The translations under genes were made by a program, and so were the position numbers. Below are positions 34,259 to 52,090 of a stretch of 64,000 bases of DNA, piece by piece. Each line of letters starts with the position of its first letter. Position 1 is the first letter of the stretch. Location of the stretch: positions 324,236-388,235 of the forward strand of contig PKTM01000011.1 in NCBI GenBank assembly GCA_002869145.1. Reading direction: 5' to 3'. This DNA is from Denitrovibrio sp. (lineage in GTDB: Bacteria > Chrysiogenota > Deferribacteres > Deferribacterales > Geovibrionaceae). The notes beneath the pieces are model-generated. The model was not told the origin of the DNA, searched no databases, and saw only the letters and a list, made by a program, of their open reading frames with translations.

Positions 34259-35023
34259 ATGGGAAAAATAATCGCAATAGCGAACCAAAAAGGTGGTGTC
34301 GGCAAGACCACTACCGCGATAAATCTGAGTTCTGCCCTGGGCTTTGCAGGTGCCAAGGTCCTGGTTGTTGATATGGATCCTCAGGGAAATGCCACAAGCG
34401 GACTCGGCGTTACCCTTGCGGATAACGACGTGTCTATATATGAAGTGCTTATCGGGCGCGCGGATGCTAAAAGCACTATTCGTCCCACTAATGTGGAAAA
34501 CCTTGACATTATACCCGGAAACATAAACCTTTCCGCTGCCGAAGTTGAGCTGGTAACAGAGATGTCCAGGGAAACAAAACTGAAAAAAGTGTTGCGAGGG
34601 GTTTGTGATGAGTATAACTTTGTCATGATAGACTGCCCCCCGTCCCTTGGGCTGCTCACTGTGAATTCGCTGACTGCGGCAGATTCTGTTCTGATACCTC
34701 TTCAGTGTGAATATTACGCTATGGAGGGTCTTGGTCAGCTGCTGAACACTATCAGCCTTATTAAGGACAGCCTCAACGTTGACCTTCAGCTGGAAGGTAT
34801 TCTTCTCACTATGTTCGATCCGAGGAATAACCTTTCAAAAGAAGTTCAAAAACAGGTTGAGGAATATCTGGCAGAGAGCATTTTTGATACGGTGATTCCA
34901 AGAAACGTTAGACTCTCCGAGGCGCCCAGCTTTGGACAGTCCATAATAGAGTATGATATAAAATCGAAGGGTGCTGCGAGCTATATAGAGCTTGCCAAAG
35001 AGATGCTTGCGAGGCTTCCATGA
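34259..35023 (+). CDS. parA: Chromosome-partitioning ATPase ParA/Soj
   Basis: 254 residues with the deviant Walker A 'NQKGGVGKTTTAINL' (~9-23), 'DMDPQGNATSGLG' and 'DCPPSLGLLT'. It segregates chromosome origins with ParB. It overlaps parB by four bases. No parS site (TGTTTCACGTGAAACA) was seen in the window, and the usual gidA/rsmG neighbours are absent. Confidence 0.95.
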   Translation: MGKIIAIANQKGGVGKTTTAINLSSALGFAGAKVLVVDMDPQGNATSGLGVTLADNDVSIYEVLIGRADAKSTIRPTNVENLDIIPGNINLSAAEVELVTEMSRETKLKKVLRGVCDEYNFVMIDCPPSLGLLTVNSLTAADSVLIPLQCEYYAMEGLGQLLNTISLIKDSLNVDLQLEGILLTMFDPRNNLSKEVQKQVEEYLAESIFDTVIPRNVRLSEAPSFGQSIIEYDIKSKGAASYIELAKEMLARLP

Positions 35024-35862
35024 AAAAAAATTCACTTGGTAAAGGGCTCGAATCCCTTATCCCTAAAGCGGAAAAGACCAGAACAATAGTTAATGAGATA
35101 GATATCGCAGATATTAAAGCGAACCCAGACCAGCCCAGAAAGGTCTTTGATGAAGAAGCTCTGGCTGAACTGACCGATTCCATACGGAAAAATGGTGTGA
35201 TACAGCCTCTTGTGCTTGCCCACGGCGAGGAAGAGGGGACATACGTTATCATAGCCGGTGAAAGACGCTGGCGTGCCTCCGGGCTTGCGGGACTGCGAAG
35301 GGTTCCTGCTGTTGTCAGAGAGCTGACCAAAGATACCGAGAAACTGGAGCTTGCTCTCATTGAAAACATTCAGAGGGAAGATCTGGGGCCTTTGGAACTG
35401 GCCAGAGCATATAAGAACCTGATGGAAACCCACAGTTACCGTCAGGAGGATGTTGCAGAAGTTGTAGGTAAAAGCAGACCGGCCATTGCAAACAGTTTAA
35501 GGTTGCTCAGTCTGCCGAAAAGGATCATAAAAGCTCTGGAAGAGGGGCGCATTACTGAAGGGCACGCAAGAGTGCTTATTGGGCTGGATGAAAAGAAGGC
35601 TGTTGAAATTCTCATAAAAATAATAGACAATAATCTCTCTGTTCGTGACGTGGAGAAGCTTGTTTCCAAAAAGGAGCGAGCTGAGATCATTCAGGAAAAT
35701 GAGGATGACGATATTTTTGTGATGAGCCTGAAAGCCGAAATGGAAGAATTTTTCCGTACAAAAATAGAGATAAAGCATGCAAAAAAAGGCGGCACAATTC
35801 AAATAAAATACTCCAGTGAAGACGATCTGGACAGGATTATAAAAACTATCAGAGGGGAATAA
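35020..35862 (+). CDS. parB: Chromosome-partitioning protein ParB/Spo0J
   Basis: 280 residues: short N-terminal ParA-contact stretch ('LGKGLESLIP'), ParB/Srx CTPase domain ('NPDQPRKVFDEEAL', 'GERRWRAS', 'ENIQREDLGPLELA'), helix-turn-helix ('EDVAEVVGKSRPAIANSLRL') and C-terminal dimerisation part ending 'SEDDLDRIIKTIRGE'. The last 53 bases of the gene are repeated at 35999-36051 just before the bactofilin start; the gene itself is intact and ends in TAA rather than the TAG of the second copy. Confidence 0.95.
   Translation: MKKNSLGKGLESLIPKAEKTRTIVNEIDIADIKANPDQPRKVFDEEALAELTDSIRKNGVIQPLVLAHGEEEGTYVIIAGERRWRASGLAGLRRVPAVVRELTKDTEKLELALIENIQREDLGPLELARAYKNLMETHSYRQEDVAEVVGKSRPAIANSLRLLSLPKRIIKALEEGRITEGHARVLIGLDEKKAVEILIKIIDNNLSVRDVEKLVSKKERAEIIQENEDDDIFVMSLKAEMEEFFRTKIEIKHAKKGGTIQIKYSSEDDLDRIIKTIRGE
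35809..35861 (+). repeat. 53-bp direct repeat, copy 1 (3' end of parB)
   Basis: The 3' end of parB is repeated 190 bases downstream (35999-36051), 51 of 53 bases identical (differences at 35835/36025 and 35856/36046). The second copy supplies the ribosome site AGAGGAGA of the bactofilin gene and its TAG abuts that ATG, so copy 2 keeps the original parB/bactofilin junction. Confidence 0.9.
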
Positions 35863-35998
35863 CCGGGAGTATTTTATAGACACAGGAAGTGTCTCACGGA
35901 GGTAGCATGGCTACCGAAGTGTAAGCGAATGTTGGCTTTGCCGGCATGAGCGTGTACTAAGAAGTGACAGGATGTCATTTCTTAGATAATTTAAAGGT
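35862..35998 (+). mobile_element. 137-bp multi-hairpin insert in the parB/bactofilin junction
   Basis: Non-coding segment between the two junction copies with four successive hairpins: AGACAC/GTGTCT (35878-35894), GGTAGC/GCTACC (35901-35915), ATGTTGGC/GCCGGCAT (35929-35947, two G.U pairs) and a 13-bp stem CTAAGAAGTGACA / TGTCATTTCTTAG (35957-35985, one G.U). The first and last share an ACAGGA-type apex. No transposase or long open frame. Best read as a REP/MITE-like structured element inserted with junction duplication; mobility is inferred. Confidence 0.55.
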
Positions 35999-36051
35999 TA
36001 CTCCAGTGAAGACGATCTGGACAGAATTATAAAAACTATCAGAGGAGAATA
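35999..36051 (+). repeat. 53-bp direct repeat, copy 2 (pre-insertion parB end)
   Basis: Second copy of the parB 3' end. In the parB frame it ends GAA-TAG at 36050-36052, directly followed by the bactofilin ATG at 36053, which reveals the ancestral, coupled gene junction. Confidence 0.9.
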
Positions 36052-36052
36052 G

Positions 36053-36427
36053 ATGAAACCGAAAGATAATAACAGCATAGATGCCTTTCTTTGCAAGAAT
36101 ACCAGCTTTAACGGTACCCTTATCTTTGATGGACTTGTCCGCATTGACGGTAATTTCGAAGGTAACATTAAAACATCAGACACTCTTGTTGTGGCAGGTA
36201 CTGGTAATGTTAAGGCGGAGATCGAAGCAGGCGATGTGAAGATTTCCGGACGTTTTGACGGGGTTATCAGTGCTAAGGACAAGGTTGAGCTATACAAACC
36301 TGCTTATGTGACCGGAACTGTAAATACTCCTATTTTCAAAGTGGAAGAGGGAGTTGTCTTCAACGGAAATTGCAACATGGGTGCAACAAACGTTAAGCAG
36401 CCTTCGCAGGAAAACAAGGAGAAGTAA
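36053..36427 (+). CDS. Bactofilin-family cytoskeletal protein
   Basis: 124 residues, mostly the DUF583/bactofilin right-handed beta-helix ('FNGTLIFDGLVRIDGNFEGNI', 'VAGTGNVKAEIEAGDVKISG', 'VTGTVNTPIFKVEEG') with short disordered ends. Bactofilins polymerise without nucleotide and help set cell shape (CcmA in Helicobacter, BacA in Caulobacter) or localise ParAB-related factors. The parAB position is seen in other bacteria too. The csd6/csd4-like pair about 11 kb away makes a shape role likely. Confidence 0.92.
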   Translation: MKPKDNNSIDAFLCKNTSFNGTLIFDGLVRIDGNFEGNIKTSDTLVVAGTGNVKAEIEAGDVKISGRFDGVISAKDKVELYKPAYVTGTVNTPIFKVEEGVVFNGNCNMGATNVKQPSQENKEK

Positions 36428-46204: not shown

Positions 46205-47530
46205 ATGCTTAACAACGCGTTTGTAGAAAAATACACCCAACTGCTTGAAGAAAAAGCAGAAAGCTTTTTTGATGCACTCCAGGGTGAAAGAAAGAAATAT
46301 ATCAGGCTGGCCTCATCCAGACCCGCAGATTATCTTTGCGAGCTGAAAGAGGCTGGGGTAGCTGTGTCCGAAGATAAGAACCTTCCTGATGTTTTCAGGA
46401 TAGAAAGCGGCGAAGAGAAACTCACCGGAACTTTAGGTTTTCAGACGGGCGGGTTTTATATAATGAACCCGTCATCTGTTTACACAGCAAGGGTTCTCTG
46501 CTCTCTTATGCCTGAATATCCATACATTTTAGACGTAGCCTCTGCTCCCGGCGGCAAGACCTGCGCTATTGCGGATATTCTTAATAACAGATGTGCCATA
46601 ATAGCAAACGAGCCTTCCGGCAAGCGAATGAAATCATTACAGTATAATTTAGAGAAATATGGCGCTTATTCAGTGCGAACCATAGGGCGTGACGGCAGAA
46701 GCCTTCATAAAACATTTGATAAATTTTTTGACGGGGTGTTGCTGGATGCACCGTGTAGCAACGAAAACAAGATAGGCCGTAACAAAACCGTAAACTCCGA
46801 ATGGAATCAGGAGATGGTGGACAGGATGGCCAAGCTTCAGAAAGAGATAGCCGCATCTGCATTTGAAACCCTAAAAGAGGGCGGAGTAATGGTTTATTCC
46901 ACCTGCACGTTCTCAGTTGAGGAGAACGAGGAAGTTGTAAAATATCTGCTTGATAATTTCGATTGTGAACTGGTTGATATCAATGGCGGTTCAGGTACTG
47001 GCGGAATAAGCGGTGATGAGAAGATAGATAGCTGTGTAGTGAGATATATGCCTCATACAGATATATATGATGGTTTTTTCATATCCGCAGTGAGGCGAAA
47101 AGGTGGCGAAAGCTCCGGCGGGGCATTTAGCAGACAGAAAAAACATAAAAGCATATCTGAGTTTTTCGAAGATTTTCCTGACTGGACAGAGATATATGAG
47201 AAAGGGAACTCTTTCTATCTGACAACACAGATGGACAGAAGTATAAACTTCTCAAAGAACGGGATACTTATATTCAAACGTGAAGGGGAGCTCTCATCCC
47301 AAGCTTTTTGGCAGCTTTCAAACTTCTTAAAAAAGGAGTTTCGAACCGAAATTTCCTTAGAAGCTGCACTAAGATATCTGAAAGGATTTGACATAGAAAA
47401 AGTTCAAGATTATCATGGACCTGCACTTTATTATAATGATATACCTATCGGGATAACAAAACCTGTTGATAGCATGCTGAAAAACAAGCTGGACAGGTAC
47501 TTTCTTTACGGAAAAAATATTGAGTGGTAA
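46205..47530 (+). CDS. RsmF/NOL1-NOP2-Sun family RNA m5C methyltransferase
   Basis: 441 residues. SAM-binding 'DVASAPGGKTCAIADIL', 'LLDAPCSNENKIGRN' with the release Cys, and the catalytic Cys in 'VYSTCTFSVEENEEVV'. A C-terminal PUA-like/RsmF domain (~330-441) supports 16S rRNA methylation. The ATG at 46205 is chosen because upstream codons (from a TTG at 46145) form an unrelated hydrophobic stretch overlapping the trkA start; no clear ribosome site is seen. Confidence 0.88.
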   Translation: MLNNAFVEKYTQLLEEKAESFFDALQGERKKYIRLASSRPADYLCELKEAGVAVSEDKNLPDVFRIESGEEKLTGTLGFQTGGFYIMNPSSVYTARVLCSLMPEYPYILDVASAPGGKTCAIADILNNRCAIIANEPSGKRMKSLQYNLEKYGAYSVRTIGRDGRSLHKTFDKFFDGVLLDAPCSNENKIGRNKTVNSEWNQEMVDRMAKLQKEIAASAFETLKEGGVMVYSTCTFSVEENEEVVKYLLDNFDCELVDINGGSGTGGISGDEKIDSCVVRYMPHTDIYDGFFISAVRRKGGESSGGAFSRQKKHKSISEFFEDFPDWTEIYEKGNSFYLTTQMDRSINFSKNGILIFKREGELSSQAFWQLSNFLKKEFRTEISLEAALRYLKGFDIEKVQDYHGPALYYNDIPIGITKPVDSMLKNKLDRYFLYGKNIEW

Positions 47531-47532
47531 AT

Positions 47533-48792
47533 ATGAAAGTCTTTTTTAAAGTTTTAAGCGTACTTTGTGTGCTGACTCAATTATCATTTGCTCAGACATT
47601 TATAAACTTTTCGGCAGAACCTTCAGACAGCTTTAACGCTGTACTGGTGGAAAAGTCAGGAAAGTGGCTTCATGTTATAAACGTCAGTGAAGGCACGGCC
47701 AAAGTTCTTGAAAGTTTTCAGGTTCTCACGGGTGGTGCAGAAGGAGATAAGCTGGTTCAGGGGGATGAAAAAACTCCTGAAGGACTTTATTTCGTCACTG
47801 GTTTTATCTCACCAGAAAAGCTGCGCTCTATGTATGGGGAAGAAGTTGCAAAACAATACGGCACAGGTGCTTACCCACTCTCATACCCGAACCTTAAAGA
47901 CAGATTGGGCGGGAAGACCGGAGGCGGAATATGGCTTCACGGTGTTGACCCTGAAAGATTAGAGCCTGTAACTAAAGGCTGTGTAGCATTCGATAACGAA
48001 AAACTTAATAACATGAATAAATACATTCAAGAGGGCACTCCTGTTATTATTACTGATGAAGGTATGCAGGGTGCAGTAAGGGAGCTCCGAGAGCATTTCC
48101 AAGAGATGAAAAAAGTTATCACTGACTATATATATGCATGGGAGAGCAACGTATTTGAGGATTTTGGCAGTTTCTATCACTCTCAGTTCAGAAGCACTAA
48201 AGGACAGGGGTTAAAAGGATATCTCAGCTACAAAAAGACTCTTATGGATTACTACCCGTATAGAAGAGTACATGCTGACAGCTTCCGCATATTTTCCCAA
48301 AATGAGAAAGAATCTGTAGCAGAGTTTGACCAGTACTATTGTGCGGCAAATGTCTTTAGCTATGGTACAAAAAAATTGTATTTAGAAGAGGAATCAGGCC
48401 GTCCAAAGATAATAGCAGAAGAGTTCAGGCAAAAGGATTCAACGCCTTTTGTACGGGCGATGGTCAACAAGTTTATTATTGACTGGAAAAACAGCTGGGA
48501 GTCTCTGGATATTGATAAATATATGAAACACTATTCCGAAGATTTTGCCACCAAAGGTATGAACAAGGCTGCATGGGAATCTGATAAGGCTGGAAAATTC
48601 GAAGATCTGAAAAGTGTAAAGGTTCAGATAGATGGCCTAAGCTACAATGCCAGCTCACCTGTCAGTTTTACGATAGAGTTTAAACAGAGCTACGAAGGGG
48701 ATACATATTCAGACGTAGGTGTGAAAACACTGAGAGTCGAAGGTTGCCCGGGGGATTTCAAAATTATTTCAGAACACTGGAGAGCAATGTGA
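47533..48792 (+). CDS. Csd6/Pgp2-like L,D-transpeptidase-fold protein with NTF2-like tail
   Basis: 419 residues. Signal peptide to about 'LSFAQ', a YkuD/ErfK catalytic domain with 'IWLHGVDPERLEPVTKGCVAF' spread over His136 and Cys150, and then what look like two tandem NTF2-like domains (~190-300 and ~305-419). Helicobacter Csd6 and Campylobacter Pgp2 share the YkuD plus NTF2 layout and trim tetrapeptides to tripeptides as L,D-carboxypeptidases. The next gene is a Csd4/Pgp1 homologue overlapping by four bases, which supports a cell-shape role over ordinary cross-linking. Confidence 0.85.
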   Translation: MKVFFKVLSVLCVLTQLSFAQTFINFSAEPSDSFNAVLVEKSGKWLHVINVSEGTAKVLESFQVLTGGAEGDKLVQGDEKTPEGLYFVTGFISPEKLRSMYGEEVAKQYGTGAYPLSYPNLKDRLGGKTGGGIWLHGVDPERLEPVTKGCVAFDNEKLNNMNKYIQEGTPVIITDEGMQGAVRELREHFQEMKKVITDYIYAWESNVFEDFGSFYHSQFRSTKGQGLKGYLSYKKTLMDYYPYRRVHADSFRIFSQNEKESVAEFDQYYCAANVFSYGTKKLYLEEESGRPKIIAEEFRQKDSTPFVRAMVNKFIIDWKNSWESLDIDKYMKHYSEDFATKGMNKAAWESDKAGKFEDLKSVKVQIDGLSYNASSPVSFTIEFKQSYEGDTYSDVGVKTLRVEGCPGDFKIISEHWRAM

Positions 48793-50225
48793 GAAAGCTC
48801 TTTTTAATAATAATAATACTAACAGCGGCTTCAGTCTGCTTTGCTGTAGACAGACCCTCCACAAAGCACGAAGTCTTCTTCACAGGAACGGACTATGAGC
48901 TGAACATATACCGAATATACGGCCGTAACGATGGTAAAACCATGTTTATAGTTGGGGGCATTCAGGGTGACGAGCCGGGCGGTTTTCTGTCCGCTGACCT
49001 GTATTCCGATTTGAAGCTGGATAGAGGGAATCTTATAGTCATCCCCAGAGCAAATTTTAAGTCTATCATACTCTATGACAGAGGTCCTGACGGCGACATG
49101 AACAGACGTTTTCTGGATGAGCCGGAAAAAGATGACATGGACAAAGTTGTGGCTATCATCAAACAGCTGATGAGCGAATCAGACATATTCCTTAATCTGC
49201 ATGACGGCTGGGGATATCATAATCCAAAATATATCAGCAAATGGCGCAACCCATATAGGTTTGGCCAGTCCATTATCACTGATGCGGATATTTTCAAGTG
49301 TGATGACGGGACAGAGCTGGATCTGCGTGCAGATGCTACCACTGTTGTTGCAGAGACAAACAAAAAGATAAGTGATGAAGAACACTACATGCACTATTTC
49401 AATACAAAAACTGAAGAATCAGGTACAAAATTTGCAGAGATGCGCAAGACAGCAACATACTATGCACTGCGCACGTTCTGCCTGCCGTCATATGGTATAG
49501 AATCGTCAAAGAATCTACCAAACACAGAGATGAAGATTCTTCACCATAATTATGCGGTTAATGAGTTTATGAAGCTTTATGACATAGTGCCTGAGGCGCC
49601 AACCATTTTTCTGGAAAAACCTAAGCTGAGCTATGCTGTTGTAACTGTGAACGGCGAGCCTAAGATAGCGGAAGAAGGCGCTTCTATTGTTGTGCATGAA
49701 GGTGACATAGTAGAAGTTACCCACATAGAGGCTAACTACGACAGGGGTGTTTCCTGTGATCTGCTTGGATATGGCGAGCTTAACGATTATCGTAAGAAAG
49801 TAGAGATTAAGAGTGATTCTGTAATTGTCTTTCGTAAAGACAACGATAAAATGGGCTATATCAACCTGAAGATAAAGAAATCTAACGGCAATGGGCATTA
49901 TTTTGTTTTTATCATAAAGCACAATGGGGAGAAGAAGCTGATACTCTCCGGTGATACTTATAATGTCAAAAACGGCGATGAAGTCGAAATAGTTTCCGCT
50001 TTTTCTGATGCATCCTGCGGTCATGAGTACCCTATAAACCTGAAAGGATACGTACCTCCAAAAGTAGTTCGCAACAGCGGAGATGACAGAGGCTACCTGA
50101 TACCTTTTACTCCTTCAAATTTTATGACCAAATATTCGAAAGATAACGATAAGCGAACCTACCCGGCTGTAGTAAGCTATAACGGTGTTGAACTGGGGAG
50201 CTTCTGGTTTCACATAAATGATTAG
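48789..50225 (+). CDS. Csd4/Pgp1-like M99 D,L-carboxypeptidase (cell shape)
   Basis: 478 residues from a GTG at 48789 (TGGAGAG upstream), which yields signal peptide 'MRKLFLIIIILTAASVCFA'. The zinc site is the unusual Gln type of peptidase family M99: 'GGIQGDEPGG' (Gln59, Glu62) and 'NLHDGWGYH' (His138), spaced much as Gln46/Glu49/His128 in H. pylori Csd4. 'PSYGIESSKNLP' supplies the catalytic Glu. Two C-terminal beta domains follow. It cleaves muropeptide tripeptides to dipeptides in the periplasm, controlling curvature. Confidence 0.88.
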   Translation: MRKLFLIIIILTAASVCFAVDRPSTKHEVFFTGTDYELNIYRIYGRNDGKTMFIVGGIQGDEPGGFLSADLYSDLKLDRGNLIVIPRANFKSIILYDRGPDGDMNRRFLDEPEKDDMDKVVAIIKQLMSESDIFLNLHDGWGYHNPKYISKWRNPYRFGQSIITDADIFKCDDGTELDLRADATTVVAETNKKISDEEHYMHYFNTKTEESGTKFAEMRKTATYYALRTFCLPSYGIESSKNLPNTEMKILHHNYAVNEFMKLYDIVPEAPTIFLEKPKLSYAVVTVNGEPKIAEEGASIVVHEGDIVEVTHIEANYDRGVSCDLLGYGELNDYRKKVEIKSDSVIVFRKDNDKMGYINLKIKKSNGNGHYFVFIIKHNGEKKLILSGDTYNVKNGDEVEIVSAFSDASCGHEYPINLKGYVPPKVVRNSGDDRGYLIPFTPSNFMTKYSKDNDKRTYPAVVSYNGVELGSFWFHIND

Positions 50226-50240
50226 TTTTGAGACTTATAT

Positions 50241-50516
50241 ATGAAAAGATTGTATGCTGTTGTTAAAGGGAGAGTTCAGGGAGTTGGCTACAGAGCCTCA
50301 GTTTCCAGGCGTATAGTGACGCTGGCCAGTATTACTGGATATGTGCGAAACCTTCATGACGGTTCTGTTGAGGTTTTGGCCGAAGGCACAGAAGATATGC
50401 TGGAACAGGTTTTAAAGATAATAAACGAAGGTTCCTTTTTAAGCAGTGTAGATGACGTTGATGTCAAATATTATGATGTCACCGGTGAATACTCTGACTT
50501 TTCTGTTAAATACTAA
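50241..50516 (+). CDS. acyP: Acylphosphatase
   Basis: 91 residues. 'VKGRVQGVGYRASVSRR' carries the phosphate-binding loop and catalytic Arg, and 'GYVRNLHDGSVEVLAEG' the catalytic Asn. It hydrolyses acyl phosphates such as 1,3-bisphosphoglycerate. It follows the csd4-like gene by 15 bases and may be cotranscribed. Confidence 0.92.
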   Translation: MKRLYAVVKGRVQGVGYRASVSRRIVTLASITGYVRNLHDGSVEVLAEGTEDMLEQVLKIINEGSFLSSVDDVDVKYYDVTGEYSDFSVKY

Positions 50517-50591
50517 CATTCGAAAAATACTTTCTTGTAAATATATTTTAAAAGTTGTATATTTCCTCACAGGCAGACCTTACTTACTGCC

Positions 50592-50700
50592 TAGCCCTGG
50601 GGGTGCTGATGTGGAGACTCGGAGCGTAAGCACGAGATGAAACAGGCGGCTGAGAGATACCCCATAAACCTGATCCGGATAATGCCGGCGTAGGGAACGG
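50592..50700 (+). promoter_or_regulatory. TPP riboswitch (THI box)
   Basis: Conserved aptamer elements in order: GGGGGTGC, the pyrimidine-sensing GGCTGAGAGATACCC, ACCTGATCCGGATAATGCC and the closing CGTAGGGAA, with CCCT/AGGG as the P1 stem. Thiamine diphosphate binding should switch off the thiC-thiE-thiL genes downstream. A hairpin terminator follows (50730-50760). Confidence 0.96.
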
Positions 50701-50729
50701 GATTTCAGTTTTTATATAAGAAACACCCG

Positions 50730-50824: not shown

Positions 50825-52090
50825 ATGACACAGTTAAAAGCGGCGAAAGAGGGGAAGATTACTCCTGAAATGAAAAAAGTAGCTCTTGATGAGCAGATAG
50901 ATGTTAAGGAGCTTAGGCAGCTCATTGCTGACGGCAAAGTTGTTATTCCGAAAAATATAAACAGAACATTCGATGTGCGTGCAATCGGCAAAAAGATGAA
51001 GACAAAAGTGAACGCAAACATAGGAACTTCCGGCGACTGCCCTTTCCTTGATATAGAGCTGGAAAAGCTTGATGCAGCCATAAAGGCCGGAGCTGATTCT
51101 GTGATGGATCTTTCAACTGGCGGTGACCTGAATGCAATACGCAGAGCCATAGAAGAGAAATGCACCGTGATGCTCGGTACAGTGCCTATATATGCTGTTG
51201 CGGCTGAGCTGGCTATGAGGGATATGACAACAGACCATATAAGCGAAGAGGTTCTTCTGCGCAACATAGAAAATCAGTGCCGTGAAGGTGTGGACTATAT
51301 AACTGTTCACTGCGGTATAACAAAAGAATCAGTAGCCAGAATGGACAACGCAGACCGTACATGCGGTATAGTGTCCAGAGGCGGCTCCATCCTTGCCAAC
51401 TGGATTCGTAAGAACGGCAAGGAAAATCCACTTTTTGAATATTATGACGACCTGCTTGACATAGCTTTTAAATACGATGTGACACTCAGTCTGGGTGACG
51501 GGTTTCGCCCGGGTGCAATAACTGATGCAACAGACAGACCGCAGATATCAGAGCTGATGATACTGGGTGAACTGGCTAAACGTGCTTATGAAAGAGATGT
51601 TCAGGTTATGATAGAGGGGCCGGGTCATGTGCCGCTCAGCCAGATAGTTACAAACATGCAGCTTCAGAAAAGGCTTTGCAACGATGCTCCTTTTTACATA
51701 CTTGGGCCGATACCTACAGACATCGCTCCGGGGTATGACCACATAACAAGCGCAATCGGAGGAGCAATAGCAGGCGCAGCCGGAGCAGATTTTCTTTGCT
51801 ATGTTACACCTGCGGAGCACTTATGCCTGCCGGATGCTAAAGATGTGCATGAGGGCGTTATAGCAACACGGATAGCGGGGCATATTGCAGACATTGAAAA
51901 AGGTATACCGGGAGCATGGGAGAGAAACGTAGAGATGGCTACAGCCAGAAAAGAGCTTAACTGGGAGCGTCAGTTTGAACTCTCAATAGACCCTGATACC
52001 GCCAGATCAAAATTCAGGCACAACAAAGAATTCGACTCATGCACCATGTGCGGAAAACTTTGTGCCGTAAAAATAGACGAAGGCCGCTAA
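50825..52090 (+). CDS. thiC: Phosphomethylpyrimidine synthase ThiC
   Basis: 421 residues, the short bacterial/archaeal-type ThiC. 'NANIGTSGDCPF', 'GRTC'-like 'ADRTCGIVSRGG', 'MIEGPGHVPL' and the C-terminal cluster motif 'SCTMCGKLCAVK' are present. It is a radical SAM-type enzyme that turns aminoimidazole ribotide into the thiamine pyrimidine HMP-P. Directly controlled by the upstream TPP riboswitch. Confidence 0.96.
   Translation: MTQLKAAKEGKITPEMKKVALDEQIDVKELRQLIADGKVVIPKNINRTFDVRAIGKKMKTKVNANIGTSGDCPFLDIELEKLDAAIKAGADSVMDLSTGGDLNAIRRAIEEKCTVMLGTVPIYAVAAELAMRDMTTDHISEEVLLRNIENQCREGVDYITVHCGITKESVARMDNADRTCGIVSRGGSILANWIRKNGKENPLFEYYDDLLDIAFKYDVTLSLGDGFRPGAITDATDRPQISELMILGELAKRAYERDVQVMIEGPGHVPLSQIVTNMQLQKRLCNDAPFYILGPIPTDIAPGYDHITSAIGGAIAGAAGADFLCYVTPAEHLCLPDAKDVHEGVIATRIAGHIADIEKGIPGAWERNVEMATARKELNWERQFELSIDPDTARSKFRHNKEFDSCTMCGKLCAVKIDEGR

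Follow-up and report, generated by a model that had tools for sequence, protein, structure and literature searches.

Two overlapping genes of Denitrovibrio sp. encode a YkuD-family protein with two tandem NTF2 domains and an M99-family protein, and the best explanation of our observations is that the two products probably form a coupled, secreted peptidoglycan-trimming pair that would bend the cell into a vibrioid shape. The genes lie in the 64,000-nucleotide stretch of DNA that we analyzed as a whole (the window; Table 1). A preliminary description of the window had placed a YkuD-NTF2 protein and an M99 carboxypeptidase at 47533-50225 and had proposed a profile search for both families. Both open reading frames proved to be real, and the Pfam models for YkuD (PF03734), Cds6_C/NTF2 (PF24125), and Peptidase_M99 (PF17033) were all matched.

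Table 1. Positions of the gene pair, its predicted domains and residues, and nearby genes in the window
Feature	Position	Strand	Details
Gene 1, secreted YkuD LD-carboxypeptidase-like protein with two NTF2 domains (predicted)	47533..48792	+	419 aa, ATG start
Gene 1, alternative start	47524	+	GTG
Gene 1, likely signal peptide	47533..47595	+	MKVFFKVLSVLCVLTQLSFAQ, read by eye
Gene 1, YkuD catalytic domain	47620..48066	+	Residues 30-178
Gene 1, His136 and Cys150 codons	47938-47940; 47980-47982	+	Align with Csd6 His160 and Cys176
Gene 1, first NTF2 (Cds6_C-like) domain	48076..48432	+	Residues 182-300
Gene 1, second NTF2 (Cds6_C) domain	48442..48789	+	Residues 304-419
Gene 2, secreted M99 (Csd4/Pgp1-like) carboxypeptidase (predicted)	48789..50225	+	478 aa from GTG start
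Gene 2, M99 catalytic domain	48861..49583	+	
Gene 2, predicted metal ligands	Gln59 48963-48965; Glu62 48972-48974; His138 49200-49202	+	By alignment to Csd4
Gene 2, C-terminal beta-rich region	49584..50222	+	Consistent with Csd4 beta-barrel and Ig-like domains
Upstream neighbor, RsmB/F-type rRNA methyltransferase	46205..47530	+	Ends 2 nt before gene 1
Downstream neighbor, acylphosphatase	50241..50516	+	15 nt after gene 2
parA-parB-bactofilin run	34259-36427		Bactofilin at 36053-36427, the sole bactofilin of the genome

The YkuD protein is a predicted LD-carboxypeptidase

The product of gene 1 (protein 1) matched the YkuD model with an E value of 1.5e-12 and the Cds6_C/NTF2 model, in two stretches, with an E value of 1.1e-29. 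Bd1075 of Bdellovibrio bacteriovorus (PDB 7O21) was its best match both in sequence (phmmer, E 1e-30) and in structure. A Foldseek search with the AlphaFold model of protein 1 (mean pLDDT 89) returned Bd1075, Csd6 of Helicobacter pylori (4XZZ), and Pgp2 of Campylobacter jejuni (6XJ6) as top matches, with an E value of 4e-24 and a TM score of 0.85 by target length for Bd1075. The preliminary description had likened protein 1 to Csd6, which holds for the family; the closest solved relative is instead Bd1075, which likewise joins a YkuD domain to a C-terminal NTF2 domain and is an LD-carboxypeptidase setting vibrioid curvature in Bdellovibrio (PMC8938487).

Alignment with Csd6 placed His136 and Cys150 of protein 1 at the catalytic His160 and Cys176, and Tyr109 and Trp134 at Tyr133 and Trp158, residues with described roles in Csd6 (PMC4599014) that Csd6 and Pgp2 have in common with protein 1. 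Two other Csd6 residues, Glu110 and His155, are individually essential there (PMC4599014) but are replaced by Gln76 and Gly131 in protein 1. Bd1075 also departs from Csd6 here, with Arg and Ser, and because Bd1075 is an active LD-carboxypeptidase without either residue (PMC8938487), Glu110 and His155 do not define the wider family. The N-terminal dimerization domain of Csd6 is absent from protein 1. Nonconservation of the two essential Csd6 residues, the YkuD domain itself, and weak matches to DpaA, both to its model (E 4e-4) and to its structure, would each fit protein 1 being an LD-transpeptidase that makes 3-3 crosslinks or attaches lipoproteins, or a DpaA-like amidase that detaches lipoproteins, paired with the M99 protein for some other reason. 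We consider this alternative very unlikely, as by far the best full-length matches were Bd1075, Csd6, and Pgp2, all of which are LD-carboxypeptidases, and an M99 partner needs tripeptide ends. Family membership makes a strong case for protein 1 as a predicted LD-carboxypeptidase of the Csd6/Pgp2/Bd1075 kind.

Tandem NTF2 domains and a terminal Trp

Rather than the single NTF2-like tail of the preliminary description, protein 1 has two tandem NTF2 domains, compared to one in every solved member of the family, which is shorter and without a terminal Trp in Csd6 and Pgp2. Coupled YkuD enzymes of all five phyla sampled mostly have two NTF2 domains, the exception being one group of Desulfarculaceae with a single NTF2 domain by the profile models used. 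When residues in the NTF2 pocket of Pgp2 are mutated, C. jejuni cells become straight or less strongly curved (PMC8038945). The first NTF2 domain of protein 1 keeps W225, F242, K257, K307, and E324 of this pocket (Pgp2 numbering) with Phe in place of Y233, and the second domain keeps all of these residues, Y233 included. Among homologs, both NTF2 copies retain the pocket, and its conservation in the second is nearly perfect, with K307 and E324 in 87/87 C-terminal copies, K257 in 86/87, and Y233 and F242 in 85/87 each.

Trp416 of protein 1 (48778-48780) is at the position of Bd1075 W303, a residue termed unique to Bd1075 (PMC8938487). This position is Trp in 86 of 87 C-terminal NTF2 copies versus 6 of 88 N-terminal copies. 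Since the C-terminal segment of Bd1075 with W303 has been tied to convex-face targeting and curvature (PMC8938487), we infer that the terminal Trp may act here as in Bd1075. Within the best explanation, a narrower question is whether the doubled NTF2 domain is only structural or oligomerizing, with the terminal Trp as a core residue that has no role in targeting. Phe or Tyr is common at the Trp position of the N-terminal copies (61/88), so an aromatic residue may simply close the fold, and W303 was tested inside a C-terminal truncation of Bd1075, apparently not by a point change (PMC8938487). However, the pocket residues that affect C. jejuni curvature are conserved in the C-terminal copy, and we regard a solely structural role as somewhat unlikely.

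The M99 protein retains nearly all Csd4 active-site residues

The product of gene 2 (protein 2) matched Peptidase_M99 (PF17033) with an E value of 5.5e-30 and 105 bits against a cutoff of 27, and it matched H. pylori Csd4 (4WCK/4Q6M) in phmmer with an E value of 5e-25. Metal ligands, the general base, and substrate residues have been reported for Csd4 (PMC4220969). By alignment of positions rather than by measured distances, the Csd4 metal ligands Q46, E49, and H128 correspond to Q59, E62, and H138 of protein 2. In the same alignment, the general base Glu222 corresponds to Glu238, the substrate arginines Arg86 and Arg94 to Arg98 and Arg106, and Arg147 and Met203 to Arg157 and Met218, with Csd4 Trp148 replaced by Phe158. 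The QxxE...H metal site, general base, and substrate arginines are also common to C. jejuni Pgp1. E62, H138, E238, R98, and R106 are invariant in 18 M99 homologs, and Q59 is changed, to His, solely in the three deepest. The three zinc ligands named in the preliminary description thus align as claimed, but the Gln that it called unusual is the norm of the family. In the M99 proteins of Chrysiogenaceae-like genomes (L062, L063, and L064), HxxE replaces QxxE, so that these proteins naturally carry the substitution of the Csd4 Gln46His structure 4WCM.

Csd4 was also the top Foldseek match of the protein 2 AlphaFold model (mean pLDDT 93); the structural alignment spans 470 columns (E 4e-27) at about 21% identity. 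The C-terminal half of the model is beta-rich, and protein 2 may follow the three-domain layout of Csd4 and Pgp1; the modest TM scores (0.52/0.59) and high rmsd (8.7) leave the packing of the domains uncertain and the family clear. With nearly all published Csd4 active-site residues kept, the assignment of protein 2 to the Csd4/Pgp1 kind of M99 protein is strong, and the corresponding activity is predicted.

The two genes are coupled and retained together in Deferribacterota

The GTG start codon of gene 2 (48789) overlaps the TGA stop codon of gene 1 (48790-48792) as GTGA, an overlap of 4 nt, and a GGAG lies a few bases upstream of the GTG. This start/stop overlap makes it very likely that the two genes are translationally coupled. 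The N termini of both proteins are signal-peptide-like. The single operon of the preliminary description is borne out by this overlap and by relatives: the pair is adjacent and in the same order in 41 of the 41 Deferribacteres genomes having it (a count of genomes outside the deepest family, G001-G003), mostly with an overlap of 4 or 16 nt. In that deepest family, probably Chrysiogenaceae, the genes are unlinked, the YkuD enzyme has one NTF2 domain, and His replaces the M99 Gln ligand. Coupling of the YkuD gene to an M99 gene differs from the arrangement of characterized systems, as pgp2 adjoins alr rather than pgp1 (PMC3961634), the Bd1075 gene is monocistronic, and the genes for Csd4 and Pgp1 are not coupled in this way.

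Among 51 Deferribacterota genomes, M99 was found in 44 and Csd6_C in 44, and the same seven genomes, some of them incomplete, were without both (Fisher p 9e-9, ignoring kinship). The pair is present in vibrioid Denitrovibrio and Calditerrivibrio. Consistent with the vibrioid host suggested previously, the window is from the same genus as Denitrovibrio acetiphilus, whose cell shape is described as "vibroid," and Calditerrivibrio nitroreducens is described as vibrio-shaped. Flexistipes is without the pair at the syntenic rsmF site, where the genes found in its genus sibling G016 are missing, and Flexistipes sinusarabici is described as "straight to acutely bent" and nonmotile. The correlation with shape is thin, because Flexistipes cells are not strictly straight but bent and just three Deferribacterota genomes could be linked to a described shape.

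The pair recurs in other phyla

At least 521 M99 relatives were found in a scan of a genome collection. The best 80 of these, which were picked for likeness to Deferribacterota and are no fair census, include Nitrospirota, Fidelibacterota (Marinimicrobia), Gammaproteobacteria, and Desulfobacterota, and most have a YkuD-NTF2 gene just upstream of M99. Occurrence of these enzyme types outside Campylobacterota, as the preliminary description put it, is true but not new (PMC3310789, PMC8938487): a 2012 study described Pgp1/M99 from delta-Proteobacteria and certain extremophiles, mainly curved or helical bacteria (PMC3310789), and a Csd6 homolog of Thermovibrio appeared in an alignment in 2015 (PMC4599014).

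M99 was almost never found without Csd6_C, in 0/44 Deferribacterota genomes with M99, 1/29 in a draw of 148 Desulfobacterota genomes, and 0/8 Nitrospirota, so that the two occurred together in 80 of 81 genomes; conversely, Csd6_C occurred alone in 10 Desulfobacterota and 2 Nitrospirota genomes. In these counts, some Csd6_C matches may be other protein types, some pairs are unlinked, and shared ancestry is ignored. This asymmetry fits a YkuD enzyme that makes the M99 substrate, as Pgp2 supplies the substrate of Pgp1 (PMC3961634), and it agrees with the order of tetra- to tri- to dipeptide that the preliminary description had cited from homologs (PMC3961634, PMC4599014). Quick trees of the two genes group the Gammaproteobacteria and Nitrospirota copies with those of Deferribacterota in one well-supported set, a lead suggesting that the two genes may have moved together.

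Desulfobacterota loci have further genes beside the pair. Between the YkuD and M99 genes lies a gene of a family with a membrane helix, a coiled coil, and a C-terminal domain (L140:3400-4149 and similar loci, cluster c5), for which neither a Pfam nor a PDB match was found and whose product might work with the trimming pair as a third component. In G000, the only match to it was weak (E 7e-4, to a 311-aa M23 peptidase frame) and probably reflects a shared membrane/coiled-coil segment, so a convincing counterpart is missing there. A bactofilin gene directly follows M99 in about a dozen Desulfobacterota loci. Bactofilins are the protein class of the H. pylori shape factor CcmA.

Stem trimming as a proposed route to curvature

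By analogy with characterized homologs, both enzymes would act in the periplasm and in sequence. The YkuD enzyme would use its NTF2 pockets to bind the sacculus and, as an LD-carboxypeptidase, remove the terminal D-Ala to convert tetrapeptide to tripeptide stems; the M99 enzyme, as a DL-carboxypeptidase, would then remove meso-DAP from uncrosslinked tripeptides to leave dipeptides. If the NTF2 domains work as in Bd1075, they would hold the first enzyme on one face of the cell, where local loss of crosslinkable stems could bend the cell into a vibrioid shape. A role of the pair in curvature of Denitrovibrio sp. is likely by this analogy; its asymmetric placement, and with it control of curvature, is suggested more weakly.

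Alternatively, the main purpose of stem trimming by the pair may be to turn over or recycle the wall or to limit crosslinking, with a minor or absent part in curvature. Pgp2-type proteins have been reported beyond helical and vibrioid bacteria (PMC3961634), and the neighbors of the pair in Deferribacterota include no shape genes, as such a housekeeping role would allow. Nevertheless, loss of Csd4, Csd6, Pgp1, Pgp2, or Bd1075, the characterized members of both families, alters cell shape (PMC3310789, PMC3961634, PMC4599014, PMC8938487). The mainly curved or helical hosts of M99, the bactofilin gene that joins the locus in Desulfobacterota, and retention of the curvature-linked pocket residues and Trp also argue against it, and we judge a role largely confined to turnover to be improbable.

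For trimming that bends the cell, our findings suggest a widespread route to curvature by sequential removal of stem residues, often inherited as one unit and not a specialty of Campylobacterota. More tentatively, the genes could constitute a portable two-gene curvature cassette in at least five phyla, in which the second NTF2 domain generalizes a convex-face targeting device supposedly confined to Bdellovibrio and the paired pockets let a single enzyme read peptidoglycan geometry at two places; we see this as possible, with the balance slightly against it. No mechanism is known for placing an enzyme on one side of the wall (PMC8938487). If tandem NTF2 domains and the terminal Trp do so, one-sided targeting could be tested across many phyla, and the gene pair would allow curved shape to be predicted from the genomes of uncultured bacteria. 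The new elements are the tandem-NTF2 architecture, co-retention of the pair, recurrence of the coupled pair in other phyla, and the near-obligate association of M99 with Csd6_C. The open-access literature searched yielded no account of the tandem NTF2 domains or of the operon in these phyla, a scope that does not prove them undescribed.

Genes surrounding the pair

The RsmB/F-type methyltransferase gene is a conserved landmark beside the pair in most of Deferribacterota, and the acylphosphatase gene follows gene 2 in some relatives only and is probably a passenger; as functional partners, both are unsupported. Bactofilin was also considered, and rejected, as a partner specific to the pair in this genome. 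The sole copy is linked to parA and parB, an arrangement conserved in nearly all Deferribacterota, and because genomes without the pair also keep it, it lends no specific support here.

A TPP riboswitch (Rfam RF00059, 63.8 bits) lies at 50589-50713, upstream of a ThiC-like open reading frame at 50825. In Balneatrix, a second Cds6_C protein of 560 aa without a YkuD match is encoded beside the pair (L126:6528-8210, minus strand), so the NTF2 domain also serves proteins of other kinds. A gene for a receiver-GGDEF diguanylate cyclase, absent from the window, directly precedes the YkuD gene in Deferribacter, Calditerrivibrio, and the Flexistipes-genus genome G016 (L070:3345-4625, L068, and L202:5468-6760); in L070 the two genes overlap. 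This arrangement hints at regulation of the pair by c-di-GMP in those relatives.
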